Assembly (NCBI RefSeq): GCF_000507245.1
Contig: NC_023035.1
Location: 509,001 to 573,000 of the forward strand
Reading direction: 5' to 3'
DNA length: 64,000 nt
Source: Salinispira pacifica
Lineage (GTDB): Bacteria > Spirochaetota > Spirochaetia > DSM-27196 > Salinispiraceae
Shown: positions 2-7,617 of the stretch, in pieces
Numbering within the stretch: the first letter of the stretch is position 1
How the letters are laid out: each line of letters opens with the position of its first letter
Program-made: the position numbers and the translations under genes
Notes under the pieces: model-generated
Told to the model about the DNA's origin: nothing
Seen by the model: only the letters and a program-made list of their open reading frames with translations
Databases searched by the model: none

Positions 2-631
2 GGGCTGTTCGTTGCCATATATCTCAGTGAATATGCACCGCCGAATGTAAAATCTGTACTGAAACCGATTCTTGAAATACTGGCAGGCGTGCCCACTGTT
101 GTGTACGGGTATTTTGCCCTGACCTTCATGACACCCCTGTTGAAGTCCATATTCGGCGCCGAGGTGGTGAATATCTACAATACTGCCTCTGCGGGAATAG
201 TTATGGGGATTCTTATTCTTCCCCTGATTGCTTCCATGACCGAAGACGCACTCAGTGCCGTTCCCGACAGTCTCCGACAGGCCGCCCACGGCCTGGGTGC
301 AACAAAAATGGAAACATCCATTCAAATCGTGGTGCCCGCAGCAATCTCCGGGATTGCCGCAGCCTTCATCGTGGGTATTTCCAGGGCAATCGGCGAGACC
401 ATGATTGTGGCTCTGGCGGCAGGGGCCGGTCCCAACTTCACATTCAACCCCTTTGAGGCCGCAGAAACCCTTACAGGGTATATTGTCCGGATCAGCGGGG
501 GAGATGTGAGTTATAACACCATTGACTACAACAGCATTTTTGCCCTGGGACTCCTGTTGTTTGTATTCACGCTGATTCTGAATATTATCTCCCGGCAAAT
601 CGTGAAACGATATCGTGAGGTCTACGAATAA
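2..631 (+). CDS. pstC: Phosphate ABC transporter permease PstC (5' truncated by window edge)
   Basis: Inner-membrane permease subunit of the high-affinity phosphate importer PstSCAB. The open frame runs in from the left edge, so only the C-terminal 209 residues are visible. They hold several hydrophobic segments and the cytoplasmic EAA-type loop ([18 protein letters not shown]) that docks on the ATPase, as is usual for the BPD_transp_1 family. Gene order pstC-pstA-pstB-phoU supports PstC over other permeases. The stop codon overlaps the pstA start by one base (TAATG), so translation is probably coupled. The phosphate-binding protein PstS would be expected just left of the window. Confidence 0.95.
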
Positions 632-2767: not shown

Positions 2768-3424
2768 ATGCAGTGGCGTGAAAAATTCCGCAATGAATTA
2801 AAGACACTGAACGACAAAATCTATTCCATGGCGGCCATCACCGTGGATCTGCTCAGGGACGGTCTGACGGCTATTCAGGAGAAGGATACCCGCCTTGCTG
2901 CCAAGGTGATCGAAGAAGATAAAATGGTGGACGCCCTTCAGGGCGAGATTGAAGATCTTGCGGCCATGCTCATTGCAATGGAGCAGCCGGTTGCAGGCGA
3001 TCTCCGTGAAATCGTCAGTGCCATCAAAATTGTATCCAGTATCGAACGGATCGCAGACCATGCAAAGCATCTGGCAGAGGGTACCGAACGGATATCCGAC
3101 GCAGGAAGAAAGCAGTTTCTGCCGGTAATTGTACAGATGGCGGAGCAGGGTATAGATATGCTGGAAACCGCAGTCAAAGCCTATCTGGACAATGATGCCG
3201 AGCTCGCCCAGTCGGTGGCGGCCAAGGATGAAAAGATCGATTCGCTGAAAAAGGAACTCACCGTACGGATCCTTGAGTTCATGAAATCCAGTCCGGAAAA
3301 TGTGGAAGAGGGGGCAAGTTTTCTCTTCCTCAACCGGTTTATGGAGCGGATGGGCGACCATGTGACAAATGTATGCGAATGGGTGTATTTTACTCACACA
3401 GGGAATCACATCGATCTGAACTGA
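2768..3424 (+). CDS. phoU: Phosphate signalling/uptake regulator PhoU
   Basis: PhoU is a cytoplasmic all-helical protein that links the Pst transporter to the phosphate two-component system and restrains phosphate uptake. The 218 residues contain the two repeated three-helix PhoU units with the metal-coordinating E/D patterns (for example EEDKMVDALQGEIEDLA and the repeat AKDEKIDSLKKEL). A good ribosome-binding site (GGAGGTG) precedes the ATG. It closes the pst cluster and is followed 46 bases later by a response regulator, the usual place for phoB-type genes. Confidence 0.95.
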   Translation: MQWREKFRNELKTLNDKIYSMAAITVDLLRDGLTAIQEKDTRLAAKVIEEDKMVDALQGEIEDLAAMLIAMEQPVAGDLREIVSAIKIVSSIERIADHAKHLAEGTERISDAGRKQFLPVIVQMAEQGIDMLETAVKAYLDNDAELAQSVAAKDEKIDSLKKELTVRILEFMKSSPENVEEGASFLFLNRFMERMGDHVTNVCEWVYFTHTGNHIDLN

Positions 3425-3470
3425 AAAGCAGCCATGACCACACATCTGACATTGATTCCCGGGAGAAAAG

Positions 3471-4172
3471 ATGCAGGAAACGGTCCTGATAGTTGAGGAT
3501 GACCGGTCAATTGCCGCTTCCGTCAGCACAGGTCTGGAGCTGGAAGGCTTTCGGACCATCCAATGCGGTTCTGCAGAAGATGCTCTTACAATTCTTCCGG
3601 TTCATCATATAGATATAGCACTTCTCGATATCCGTCTCCCCGGAATGGACGGGCTGAATTTGTGCAGAACTCTCAGGGAGCAGGGGCATACGTTTCCCGT
3701 GATCATGCTTACCGCCAGGGACGAAGAGTTGGATAAAGTTCTCGGCCTGGAAATGGGGGCAGACGATTACATGGTTAAACCCTATGGATACCGGGAACTT
3801 CTCAGTAGAATCCGGGCCCAGCTTCGCAGGGCTACCCGATACAGCAGTTCGGATTCGGAAGGTGAGCTGGTGGATTTTGGACAGGCGCGAGTTGATTTTC
3901 TTGCCCGAAGAGCTTTCCGGGATGGCCGGGAAATAGATATTACACCGGTGGAATTCCGTATCATGCTGGTCTTCAAAGATCACGAGAATCAATCTCTCAG
4001 CCGCCAGCAGATTATTGATGCTGTGTGGGGGCAGGATTTTTTTCTGGAAGACCCCAGGACTGTAGATGTTCATATCAGGCATCTGCGCGAGAAACTGGAG
4101 ACAGACCCATCATCTCCCCGGCACATTCAAACCGTCCGGGGGCACGGTTACCGCTTTATTAAGAATCCTTAA
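3471..4172 (+). CDS. OmpR/PhoB-family response regulator
   Basis: DNA-binding response regulator of 233 residues. The receiver domain (about 3-118) has the acidic pair D10/D11, phospho-acceptor D53 (LLDIRLPG), the switch threonine in MLTARD and the conserved lysine in VKPYGY. The C-terminal winged helix (about 135-231) ends with the family pattern VDVHIRHLREKL...VRGHGYRF. Its position right after phoU suggests a PhoB role. However, the cognate kinase lies beyond a PDZ-protein gene and has a Met/His-rich sensor, so a metal or envelope signal is also possible. I therefore give no symbol. Confidence 0.93.
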   Translation: MQETVLIVEDDRSIAASVSTGLELEGFRTIQCGSAEDALTILPVHHIDIALLDIRLPGMDGLNLCRTLREQGHTFPVIMLTARDEELDKVLGLEMGADDYMVKPYGYRELLSRIRAQLRRATRYSSSDSEGELVDFGQARVDFLARRAFRDGREIDITPVEFRIMLVFKDHENQSLSRQQIIDAVWGQDFFLEDPRTVDVHIRHLREKLETDPSSPRHIQTVRGHGYRFIKNP

Positions 4173-4212
4173 TATTCACACAACGAGAGAATAATGGCCG
4201 GGGGTTAGATTT

Positions 4213-4242
4213 ATATCAGATTAACGAGAGGAGGTCTGATAT
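4213..4242 (+). promoter_or_regulatory. Hairpin holding the ribosome-binding site in its loop
   Basis: Perfect 8-bp inverted repeat (ATATCAGA at 4213-4220, TCTGATAT at 4235-4242). The 14-base loop carries the Shine-Dalgarno sequence GAGGAGG, and the right arm runs into the ATG of the PDZ gene at 4241. In RNA this could modulate translation start. The structure is read from sequence; regulation is inference. Confidence 0.45.
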
Positions 4243-4813
4243 GACCAAGACACACAAAAGACTGGCAGTGACTGGAGTTGTTCTCATGTTCGCTCTGATT
4301 CCGGCAGCACTGTTTGCCAATGGAAACCAGGAAGCCGGACAGTACTCCCAAGCCTGGGGTCCCGGATACCGGGCAGAAGTTCCTGTAGCTGATGGATGGC
4401 ATGGGAGAGGCATGGGAATCCATGTACTCGAAGTCCTGCAGGAATCCGCGGCAGATGCAGCCGGCCTTCAAGCCGGTGATGTGATCATCGCCGTCAACGG
4501 AGAGTACATCTATGAGGTTCTTTCAGATGGAACCCTTGCAGATCTGAATGCAGGGGAAATGCTGACGTTGAACGTCATGAGGTTCCGGGAAGATGATTCT
4601 CAATATATGATGCCCGAAGAACTGATTATTGACCTTGAAGTTGGACAGGGAGCAAATGGCGAGCCCCGGATCGGGATCAGCTATAGCATTCCCGGCGGAA
4701 TGTATGGCAGAGGTCCTGCAGGTCACGGTATGATGGGGGCCCGGAGAAACGGAAATCCCGGCGGTCGCGGCTATGCCCGGGGATTGAATGATCCTTCCGC
4801 TCAGTCATTTTAA
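4241..4813 (+). CDS. Exported PDZ-domain protein with Met/Gly/His-rich tail
   Basis: A protein of 190 residues with a clear signal peptide: basic start, hydrophobic segment about 9-25, cleavage near LFA-NGNQEA. The mature protein is a single PDZ-like domain (about 45-140), with the carboxylate-loop region MGIHVLEV and the pattern AGLQAGDVIIAVNG. It ends in a Gly/Met/His/Arg-rich tail (GMYGRGPAGHGMMGARRNG). No protease domain is present, so it is not a DegP-type enzyme. It lies between the response regulator and the sensor kinase, whose extracytoplasmic region carries a similar HGMGMM motif. An accessory sensing or metal-binding role is therefore plausible but inferred. A strong GAGGAGG ribosome-binding site sets the start. 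Confidence 0.8.
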   Translation: MTKTHKRLAVTGVVLMFALIPAALFANGNQEAGQYSQAWGPGYRAEVPVADGWHGRGMGIHVLEVLQESAADAAGLQAGDVIIAVNGEYIYEVLSDGTLADLNAGEMLTLNVMRFREDDSQYMMPEELIIDLEVGQGANGEPRIGISYSIPGGMYGRGPAGHGMMGARRNGNPGGRGYARGLNDPSAQSF

Positions 4814-4851
4814 TCAATAATGAACTAATGGCGGAAGAACGGCAATAGAAT

Positions 4852-6513
4852 ATGAAGATGATCCATCGGATTCAGACAAAACTGTTTTTCATTTTTCTCA
4901 TACTGGCCTTGCTCACCCTTGGGGTGAGCGGGCTTGTGTTTTTTACTTCATATAATTCCCTGCTTTACCGGAGTGAAGCCAGAGGCCTTGAAAGATATCT
5001 GATAGAAGCGGGGCAGGTGGTTTCCCAGGGCATAGAGGGTAATCGTTGGCTTGGACTCAACCAGAACATGAGGGAGCGTTTGGCCGGGCTAAGCAGATTC
5101 GGTCGGATAAGGGTCAGTTTGCTGGATTCCCGGGGTGAATTGATCGATGATTTTTCTCCTGCCGCCCCGGATTCATTATGGAGTGAAGATGTGCAAATCC
5201 CCCTGCCCGGGGATTTTCCCCGGCCTGCTCCCGGGGTCGGAACTTCGAACCGGGATAATGCTCGTCACGGGATGGGGATGATGTCCGGAGAATCCATGAT
5301 GCGCATGGAACATCCAAATCCGATGGCAGCCGGTCGTCTCTTCCCGGGAGAGAATTCAATTGGAATTCAGGGGCATGTGGGGGGAATTACCGTTCAGGTA
5401 TTTCGGGATACCCGGAGCGGATCGGCCCTGCTGATGCTTGCATCCAGAGGCTATATAATTGCAATGCTATTTGCAGCTGGAGCCGCAGCGGGCGTATCGT
5501 ATCTGTTCGGCTCCAAAATCAGCGGTCCGGTGAAGGAGCTACGCGATGCTGCAGTTCTGATGGCACAAGGTAATTATCAGGTTCGTGCCGTTGTACGAGG
5601 GGCGGATGAAATTGCTCAGCTGACCGACAGTTTTAATCATTTGGCGGCTGAACAGGAGCGCAGAATAGGGGAGCTTCAACAGGAGCGGGACAGTCTACAG
5701 CGCTTCCTTATGGATGCCAGTCATGAGTTACGTACACCCCTTACATCTCTGCTTACAAGTTCGGAGATATTGCTGGAGAAGGCTCCGAATACCGATGCCA
5801 GACTGAAAAAACTTCAGAATGAAAACCATGAGTCAATACTCCGGTTAAAGGAACTTGTTGACAGGCTTCTCTCCATGAGCAGAATCCAGGCAGGACTGGA
5901 TTCACTTGAGCCTGCTGAATACAGTCTTGAACAATTATGCAAGGCTCCTTTCAGGGAAACCGCATCTTCCTCTGTGACCTTGTATATTATTGATCCTGAT
6001 TTCACTGTGTTTGCAGATAAGCTGCGTTTTGGCCAGGTTTTGCGAAACCTTATTGAAAATGCCGTGCATGCGGGAAGTAAAAATATTTATATATCGGCGT
6101 TCCGATCAGAGGATGACTCCGAATCTCTTATTACCGTGTTGGATGACGGGCCTGGTATTCCTGAGGAAATGCAGGGAGAGATTCTTCATCCTTTCATCCG
6201 GGGTGAGGGCTCCACCGGGCTTGGAATAGGGCTGTCAATATGCAGCGATATTGTCCGGCGTCAAGGCGGGACGCTTTCATTAACCTCACCCGTCTCTGAA
6301 GTTATCCATGTTTTTCCCGACGGGGCATTGCCAATGTATCGGGTCGATGCTGAAAAAGCTGACGACATGAAAGCTGACGACATGAAAATAGAAGAAACGA
6401 ACACCGGAAAAATACTATTGAGGGAATTTCTTGCCTCATTGTCAATAAAACGGGGAAGCGCGGCAGTAGTCAAACTGCCTGCTTCCCCTGTGAAGAAACC
6501 GGATTCAGTCTGA
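4852..6513 (+). CDS. Sensor histidine kinase with Met-rich periplasmic domain and an insertion in the ATPase domain
   Basis: Membrane two-component kinase of 553 residues. Helix 1 is about 10-32. The extracytoplasmic domain (about 33-198) contains a Met/His-rich stretch (HGMGMMSGESMMRMEH). Helix 2 is about 200-220, followed by HAMP (about 222-275). The HisKA phospho-acceptor is H291 (FLMDASHELRTPLTSL). The ATPase domain has N box LRNLIENAVHAG, G1 DDGPGIP and G2 GLGIGLSI. The normal last strand of the ATPase fold appears displaced: SLTSPVSE is followed by some 50 unexpected residues, including ADDMKADDMK, before GSAAVVKLP. It probably pairs with the regulator at 3471. Its 3' end overlaps wrbA (opposite strand) by 9 bases. 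Confidence 0.9.
   Translation: MKMIHRIQTKLFFIFLILALLTLGVSGLVFFTSYNSLLYRSEARGLERYLIEAGQVVSQGIEGNRWLGLNQNMRERLAGLSRFGRIRVSLLDSRGELIDDFSPAAPDSLWSEDVQIPLPGDFPRPAPGVGTSNRDNARHGMGMMSGESMMRMEHPNPMAAGRLFPGENSIGIQGHVGGITVQVFRDTRSGSALLMLASRGYIIAMLFAAGAAAGVSYLFGSKISGPVKELRDAAVLMAQGNYQVRAVVRGADEIAQLTDSFNHLAAEQERRIGELQQERDSLQRFLMDASHELRTPLTSLLTSSEILLEKAPNTDARLKKLQNENHESILRLKELVDRLLSMSRIQAGLDSLEPAEYSLEQLCKAPFRETASSSVTLYIIDPDFTVFADKLRFGQVLRNLIENAVHAGSKNIYISAFRSEDDSESLITVLDDGPGIPEEMQGEILHPFIRGEGSTGLGIGLSICSDIVRRQGGTLSLTSPVSEVIHVFPDGALPMYRVDAEKADDMKADDMKIEETNTGKILLREFLASLSIKRGSAAVVKLPASPVKKPDSV
6358..6387 (+). repeat. Two tandem 15-base repeats in the kinase gene
   Basis: GCTGACGACATGAAA occurs twice back to back (6358-6372 and 6373-6387), in frame, coding ADDMK twice inside the unusual insertion near the C terminus of the sensor kinase. 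It looks like a recent slippage duplication. Confidence 0.85.
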
Positions 6514-7113
6514 CAGTTTTCCCGCCAGCTGAGCGGTCCGTTTTCCCTGAAATCTTGCTGCAGCCAGTTCATTTTCGCTTGGCATTCTGGATCCGTCACC
6601 CGCCGCAATTGTTCCTGCTCCATAGGGGCTTCCGCCGGTGATTTCATCCACCCGCATCTGTCCCTGAAATGTATAGGGAAGACCTGCAACCACCATTCCC
6701 TGATGGAAAAAGAAACGGTGAATGGTTGAAATGGCAGTCTCATGGCCTCCATGCTGGGTTGCGGTACCCACCATTGCGCTTCCCACCTTGCCTTCCAGGC
6801 TCTGGCCGGCCCACTGTCCCCCTGTCTGGTCCAGAATGTTCTGTACCTGACCGGGAACTGTTCCGTATCTGGTGGCGGAAACAAGAATAAAACCGTCGGC
6901 GTCCCCGAAATCCCGGGGGGTCAACTCCGGTACGTCTGCAAAAGCTTTCTGAGCTTCAAGCGCACCCATCTGCTCCAGCACTTCTGCAGGAATGGTTTCC
7001 GGAAAGCGCTTCAACTCAACTTCTCCCCCTGCTTCCTTCACACCTTCAGCCGCGGCTTTCGCCATGAGATAATTATGTCCGTATGTAGAGTAAAAAAATA
7101 CCTTAATTTTCAT
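6505..7113 (-). CDS. wrbA: WrbA-type NAD(P)H:quinone oxidoreductase
   Basis: FMN flavoprotein of 202 residues that reduces quinones by two electrons, avoiding semiquinone radicals. It has the flavodoxin-like start KVFFYSTYGHNYLMAKAAAEG, the conserved SATRYGTVPGQVQNILDQTG loop and the FMN-contacting GTATQHGGHE segment. The family signature GLPYTFQG...GGSPYGAGT follows. Length is normal for WrbA. The start overlaps the end of the upstream marR gene by 11 bases, so the two form an operon that the MarR protein probably represses. The C terminus overlaps the convergent kinase gene by 9 bases. Confidence 0.95.
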   Translation of the reverse strand: MKIKVFFYSTYGHNYLMAKAAAEGVKEAGGEVELKRFPETIPAEVLEQMGALEAQKAFADVPELTPRDFGDADGFILVSATRYGTVPGQVQNILDQTGGQWAGQSLEGKVGSAMVGTATQHGGHETAISTIHRFFFHQGMVVAGLPYTFQGQMRVDEITGGSPYGAGTIAAGDGSRMPSENELAAARFQGKRTAQLAGKLSD

Positions 7114-7575: not shown

Positions 7576-7617
7576 TTTAGTAACAAATAGTTTAGAAGTA
7601 AACTATTTGTTACTAAA
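7576..7617. promoter_or_regulatory. Perfect 42-base palindrome, probable MarR operator
   Basis: Two 19-base arms (7576-7594 and 7599-7617) are exact reverse complements with a 4-base spacer (GAAG). Each arm contains AGTAACAAATAGTTTA. The AT-rich composition, lack of a T-tract and position just upstream of marR-wrbA fit a repressor operator rather than a terminator. The length would fit two MarR dimers. Confidence 0.75.

Follow-up and report, generated by a model that had tools for sequence, protein, structure and literature searches.

A regulator, a PDZ protein and a kinase downstream of phoU

We analyzed a 64,000-nucleotide stretch of the Salinispira pacifica chromosome (NC_023035.1, positions 509,001 to 573,000; hereafter the window), in which three consecutive genes behind phoU encode a response regulator, an exported protein with a single PDZ domain and a sensor histidine kinase. 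The order of these genes, a predicted operator between the first two of them and the occurrence of that operator at protease genes in related genomes suggest that the trio is likely an autoregulated two-component system that monitors envelope protein quality, with the PDZ protein as a feedback or sensing partner. All three genes lie where the initial annotation of this DNA had placed them, and their coordinates are collected with those of the other features in Table 1.

Table 1. Features of the regulator-PDZ-kinase locus, numbered from the first nucleotide of the window (pdz-hk, the PDZ and kinase genes).
Feature	Position	Strand	Basis
phoU, end gene of the pst operon	2768..3424	+	TIGR02135, 193.8 bits, above cut-off
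Response regulator, OmpR/PhoB-type	3471..4172	+	Response_reg 98.2 bits and Trans_reg_C 92 bits (Pfam)
Predicted operator, four half-sites: TTAA 4159-4162, TTAA 4169-4172, ACAA 4180-4183, ATAA 4191-4194	4159..4194	+	Conserved alignment
Predicted -10 box TAGATT of the pdz-hk promoter	4206..4211	+	TAnnnT at +48..53 in 12 of 12 aligned sites
Exported one-PDZ protein, no protease domain	4241..4813	+	Pfam PF00595 and PF17820 above cut-off
WHGRGMGIH, entry to the PDZ domain	4397..4423	+	Sequence; Pfam match begins at residue 57
GHGMMGARRNG, in the Gly/Met/Arg-rich tail	4721..4753	+	Sequence
Sensor histidine kinase	4852..6513	+	HAMP, HisKA, HATPase_c (Pfam); transmembrane segments by hydropathy; alignment with five related kinases
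HGMGMMSGESMMRMEH, sensor domain of the kinase (extracytoplasmic)	5266..5313	+	8 Met+His per 16 residues

The regulator carries both the Response_reg and the Trans_reg_C domain of the OmpR/PhoB class and is 47–55% identical to five related regulators. The kinase is composed of two transmembrane segments, an extracytoplasmic sensor domain and HAMP, HisKA and HATPase domains. Near its C-terminus (window 6280-6480), ahead of the final strand, it also has a long insertion that includes a KADDMKADDMK repeat and is absent from the five other kinases in the alignment.

The PDZ protein begins with a signal peptide of about residues 1–26, as judged by eye. Its PDZ domain scores above the Pfam gathering score with two models (PF00595, 35.3 against a cut-off of 23.2; PF17820, 34.5 against 27), and the stretch WHGRGMGIH leads into the domain's first strand, with GIHVLEV aligned to GIVITQV. 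Pfam returned nothing but PDZ or PDZ-like families at E values up to 0.1, and no protease or trypsin domain was found. A profile built from five of the PDZ proteins had its best match in the PDZ region of DegQ/DegP (4a8a, 3.6e-24). Because of this match, and because no protease domain was found, the protein resembles an HtrA protease reduced to its substrate-binding half. Across the module, the number of PDZ units per PDZ protein varies from one to three (by eye), and the linkers of these proteins are Gly-, Met- and Arg-rich.

Conservation of the module and of a predicted operator

We searched 394 genomes of the class with profiles of the regulator and the PDZ protein and then read the resulting loci. 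Family codes below (f1, f10 and so on) denote spirochaete families among these genomes, and G000 is the S. pacifica genome that holds the window (3,782,798 bp in one contig). The order regulator-PDZ-kinase was found on one strand in 12 loci (G000, G001, G002, G047, G048, G073, G074, G093, G124, G182, G242 and G247), which span five families (f1, f10, f11, f17 and f40). The G109 module lies partly on one contig and partly on another; in G003 a contig end truncates the PDZ gene, which stands beside the kinase. Two genomes, G054 and G112, possess the regulator and kinase without an adjacent PDZ gene and have a PDZ homologue on another contig. In these same genomes a second exported single-PDZ protein is followed by a different kinase and by an NtrC-like regulator (by eye; L111 4061-7458 and L114 3418-6909), which is, on this gene order, an independent pairing of a PDZ protein with a kinase. 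The regulators of the module cluster in a midpoint-rooted tree, except that a long-branch set from f34 falls among them, and support within f1 is low (0.128). Searching the genome contigs with the regulator alignment returned at least 80 regulators with 34–45% identity, one of which entered the tree.

A repeated TTAAGAAATCTTAA-like sequence was noticed in the gap between the regulator and PDZ genes. The conserved element at this place is laid out as half-sites of the form xxAA at +1, +11, +22 and +33, followed by a TAnnnT -10 box at +48, and its second half-site overlaps the stop codon of the regulator gene in the window and likewise in G001. The core TTAA-N6-TTAA is present in 12 of 15 loci, once per locus and always in the regulator-PDZ gap (in G109, upstream of the PDZ gene at the start of the contig), and the remaining sequence of those loci, which total 195,920 bp with the 64-kb window, has no further copy. 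Counted over the PDZ-bearing loci, the element is complete in 12 of 13. In a gapless alignment anchored on the core, eight of the 64 other columns are invariant (7, 24, 25, 35, 36, 48, 49 and 53). Row shuffles gave at most one invariant column in 20,000 trials, although such shuffles ignore relatedness and the rows of G073 and G093 are nearly identical, with 63 of 72 columns in common; random anchors gave none, and neither did anchoring on the PDZ start codon.

The stricter pattern TTAAG-N4-CTTAA has a single match in the 3.78-Mb S. pacifica genome, at the trio, against nine for a reversed control pattern. A longer pattern allowing up to three mismatches also found the trio as the sole S. pacifica match, with no mismatches (control: one forward and two reverse). 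The strict core matched the trio site and one further site each in G001 and G002, and had no match in G003. A sequence-only model built from 12 sites, R1, placed its best match at the trio in 12 of the 16 genomes searched; for S. pacifica its scan covered 150 of 504 first-look candidates, and the pattern search covered the whole genome. Over the 394 genomes, at E values up to 0.001, R1 returned 14 matches, 12 of them in the source genomes by construction and two weak ones in other spirochaete families (G252:C1:4325857 and G359:C2:64096). R1 was also run on 25 loci that carry related or paralogous regulators, homologues of the PDZ protein, or pho operons; its only match was in the window's own region, and the other 24 were negative. 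It had no match within about 1.5 kb of the regulators that the regulator profile also matched in G040, G131, G141, G149, G159 and G167.

Conserved AA steps spaced 10–11 bp apart over several repeats and followed by a -10 box are a pattern of OmpR-family regulators. The PhoB-PhoR system, whose regulator belongs to this family, uses direct repeats of 11 bp arranged in tandem ahead of the -10 box, and here the last half-site is placed before the -10 box in a way that resembles PhoB-type activation. The element could instead be an RNA hairpin or the site of another protein. We consider this improbable: TTAAG-N4-CTTAA is able to pair as RNA, and the operator role is predicted from sequence only, but the 10–11 bp spacing of the AA steps over four repeats and the fixed -10 box speak for a regulator's operator, as does the absence of the element from the two regulator-kinase loci without a PDZ gene. 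A search of Rfam over window positions 3000-7000 gave only a non-significant match, to mir-23, which lies elsewhere (5116-5226), and with nothing significant at the element the possibility of a described RNA was dropped.

Upstream of the regulator gene, no conserved element was seen by eye or in a simple repeat scan, so that the regulator may ride on the transcription of whatever gene precedes it. This neighbor varies, being phoU here and elsewhere an acyl-CoA ligase-like gene, a TetR-like regulator or others (by eye). If the regulator rides on phoU, phosphate status could alter its supply without being the signal.

Predicted operator sites at htrA genes and the proposed function

Secondary R1 matches in f40 fell directly upstream of HtrA/Do protease genes. 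Run on 30 htrA-type loci, R1 gave four matches, all in f40, and a weight matrix located the full element before all six Do-type htrA genes of this family (two each in G124, G242 and G247), Do-type being taken as a TIGR02037 score of 406 bits or more over positions 2-3 to 431-432. A seventh f40 gene, truncated at a contig end (G242:C83, 353.8 bits), stands outside the six, and the shorter HtrA-like gene G124:C112 of the same family has no site. The six sites scored 23.5–31.6 bits, against a maximum of -4.2 in a null of 20,000 windows, overlapping and drawn from 15 f40 loci; this separate null was used in place of that of the first matrix scan, which included f40 sites. Built solely from the nine trio sites of f1, f10 and f11, a second matrix gave the f40 htrA sites 12.7–25.5, against a null maximum of -10.2, and gave the three f40 trio sites -3.4 to 9.9. 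Neither matrix was built with any htrA site. In G182, a variant before one htrA gene scored 5.7 bits, at about the 99th percentile of its own null, which is suggestive only.

The Do-type htrA gene of S. pacifica itself (L282, G000:C1:1983029-1984284) is read in two overlapping frames and would on that account be broken or mis-sequenced. Weaker element-like sites were also seen in other genomes. In three f10 genomes they lie near the same membrane protein gene (E 0.1–0.73; L253, L257 and L248; Fer4_5 by Pfam in L253), and in two f10 genomes at what is apparently one locus (L242 and L255), followed in L255 by a gene for a DUF4405 membrane protein. G074 has one (E 0.022) ahead of an exported DUF2202 protein (L244 1501-2111), and G124 one (E 0.13) ahead of a sigma-70-family factor (L254). 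Because of these secondary matches near Fer4_5, DUF4405, DUF2202 and sigma-factor genes, the regulon may extend beyond proteases.

The initial annotation had offered a metal sensor and an envelope sensor as possible roles for the trio, and had the PDZ protein present the signal to the kinase, as it may indeed do. Because the predicted operator of the module also precedes htrA protease genes in f40, the second of these is the best reading. The sequence itself shows that the module is conserved, as is the element together with its -10 box, that the element occurs at htrA in f40, that the PDZ protein has no protease domain and that there is a separate PhoB-PhoR candidate, described below. In the likely quality-monitoring system outlined above, the kinase would pick up an extracytoplasmic signal and phosphorylate the regulator, which would then bind the four tandem half-sites just upstream of the pdz-hk -10 box and activate this promoter; in f40 it would probably also activate the htrA proteases. 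The PDZ protein would probably bind misfolded envelope proteins at their exposed ends or loops, and adjust the kinase. In the simplest form, it would be a feedback damper that is titrated off by its substrates, as CpxP is thought to be for CpxA. We infer the signal, the binding of the regulator to the element, the activation and the contact between PDZ protein and kinase from the architecture and from the precedents of CpxP, DegS and CssRS/CutRS.

More tentatively, the protease-less HtrA-type PDZ protein may be a dedicated peptide-reading subunit of the kinase that binds the exposed ends of unfolded envelope proteins as DegS does, signals to the kinase where DegS would cut an anti-sigma factor, and is made from the regulator's own four-half-site promoter. 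Since S. pacifica has only one strict operator genome-wide, the main output of this circuit would then be the PDZ protein. It is also conceivable, if rather unlikely, still within the envelope-stress reading, that the PDZ protein is output only, a periplasmic holdase or an adaptor for other proteases that never contacts the kinase, which would sense stress alone as has been proposed for CutS. Its gene lies under a predicted regulator-dependent promoter like any target, pdz-hk is the sole strict target in S. pacifica, and G054 and G112 have the regulator-kinase pair without a neighboring PDZ gene; yet the PDZ gene is retained between regulator and kinase in 12 loci of five families, and the second exported PDZ protein of G054 and G112 again stands beside a kinase.

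Several observations weigh against a quality-monitoring system with a PDZ partner. Because G054 and G112 keep the regulator and kinase alone, the kinase can do without a neighboring PDZ gene, and the element was not found at either locus. G182 has the trio and only a degenerate site (TTACGAAATCTTGA), which R1 missed. The relatedness of the aligned rows, noted above, belongs here as well, as does the poor conservation of the kinase sensor domain in the alignment with five related kinases. An AlphaFold model of the PDZ protein from its single sequence was too poor for use (pLDDT 45). Finally, the link to htrA is extrapolated from f40, because no htrA gene examined in f1, f10 or f11 stands out: the eight Do-type genes of these families, S. 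pacifica included, have no site (-21.3 to 0.4), and the highest score, in G093, was equalled by 25 of 2,933 null windows. The system may thus control only itself in S. pacifica.

The protease that cuts the kinase VgrS is reportedly the PDZ protein Prc, and we know of no regulator-PDZ-kinase operon for the VgrS system. VgrS, from Xanthomonas, is a histidine kinase controlled by proteolysis (available text of PMC6237974), and differs from the kinase considered here in that the sensor is cut by a protease. The favored reading resembles CpxA-CpxR/CpxP of E. coli, an envelope-protein stress system that controls degP/htrA and in which the periplasmic partner is itself a strong target (available text of PMC6737893): both would be envelope-stress two-component systems with the periplasmic partner as a target, here a predicted one. 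However, CpxP is Spy-like, whereas the partner here is a PDZ protein with no CpxP/Spy (LTXXQ) match in Pfam at E values up to 0.1; the CpxR and CpxA models score below their cut-offs (149.6 against 341 bits and 97.6 against 486 bits); and as to control of htrA, the element lies before six of six f40 genes, whereas no site was found at htrA in S. pacifica.

CssRS-HtrB and CutRS, of Bacillus and Streptomyces, are two-component systems that control htrA-family genes, and htrB is likely in an operon with cssRS (available text of PMC12802291). HtrB is a quality-control protease, whereas the neighbor here is PDZ only, with no trypsin domain, and no full HtrA lies beside the two-component genes. The CutR motif given in the available part of the same source, TAWATAAA, is unlike the element described here (PMC12802291). 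In the DegS-RseA-sigma E system, a periplasmic PDZ domain reads the ends of unfolded outer-membrane proteins and triggers a stress response (available text of PMC6737893). That pathway is a protease cascade with a sigma factor and no kinase, whereas a kinase is present here. Within the portions of open-access PMC articles that our literature search returned, no spirochaete envelope-stress two-component system was described, and none with a protease-less PDZ partner. If the PDZ protein steers the kinase, the trio would connect two ways of reading unfolded proteins, the PDZ-based one of DegS and the kinase-based one of CpxA. With its -10 box the element (4159-4211) is 53 bp long and directly assayable, and the small size of the PDZ protein suits it to peptide-binding screens.

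Phosphate and metal sensing as unlikely readings

The regulator that follows phoU would normally be expected to be PhoB, as the initial annotation remarked. Its start lies 46 bp behind phoU, and no forward terminator-like site was found in the gap, in scans for terminator and promoter consensus that were at chance level. PhoB is also the best NCBIfam model for the regulator, although at 217.8 bits it falls below the cut-off of 296.2. On this basis the trio could be the PhoB-PhoR system of the adjoining pst operon, with the PDZ protein as an accessory, but we find this barely credible. A second phoU (968187-968810 of the S. pacifica chromosome), a PhoB-like regulator and a PhoR-like kinase form an operon at 965.6-968.8 kb, and this separate regulator is the stronger PhoB candidate (244.9 bits, likewise below the cut-off). 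The order phoU-phoB-phoR recurs in two relatives, G001 and G002. Because of this separate operon in the same genome and in both relatives, we rejected the identification of the trio as PhoB-PhoR, in agreement with the earlier view that its regulator is not PhoB.

Nor does the position beside the phosphate operon hold beyond this genome. Elsewhere phoU lies outside the module, and nine other module genomes searched (G001, G002, G047, G048, G074, G093, G124, G182 and G242) have no phoU match on the trio's contig; G002 has a pst operon with similar upstream neighbors (by eye) and no trio behind its phoU. For these reasons the position of the trio behind phoU is peculiar to this lineage among those examined. 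The initial annotation had pointed to the phosphate operon as a neighbor, which is correct for S. pacifica and for none of the other module genomes examined, and the order regulator-PDZ-kinase is indeed conserved apart from pst.

The metal reading started from the Met/His clusters, which were proposed to form a shared motif that binds copper or silver, with the PDZ protein passing the metal to the kinase. The three stretches, WHGRGMGIH, GHGMMGARRNG and the extracytoplasmic HGMGMMSGESMMRMEH, are present in the proteins named, although GHGMMGARRNG does not end the PDZ protein, which continues for 19 residues. The kinase cluster is far from chance: none of 20,000 shuffles of the kinase reached 8 Met+His in 16 residues, and the runner-up among 54 non-overlapping open reading frames of the window (120 aa or more) has 5. 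A ZIP-like permease (by eye) is also encoded within a few genes of the module in G048 (L030 9818-10696) and G047 (L044 9398-9943), past genes on the opposite strand.

However, the clusters are neither shared nor conserved. The highest 16-residue count in 15 homologous kinases is 1–5, with the maximum of 5 in G003, of the same family, so that in this comparison, limited to Met and His, the cluster is absent from all of them. The densest 11-residue stretch of the window's PDZ protein has 3 Met+His, against 1–4 in the other PDZ proteins examined, and its His share is 2.1%, against 0.2–2.4%; because both values fall inside the range of its homologues, the protein is not unusual. Models for heavy-metal two-component systems (CusRS/CopRS/SilRS) scored far below cut-off (TIGR01386, 89.9 against 292.55 bits; TIGR01387, 177.2 against 279.2 bits), and no metal-handling protein was present among six window proteins scanned against Pfam. 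The predicted operator, moreover, sits at htrA genes in f40. The metal-sensor reading was rejected on the lack of cluster conservation in the kinases and PDZ proteins, an outcome that the initial annotation had itself named as refuting it, and we now hold a copper or silver sensor to be very unlikely.

Past the trio, at window positions 7576-7617, a perfect inverted repeat of 19 pairs with a T-rich tail on the minus strand lies immediately before the start of a MarR gene.

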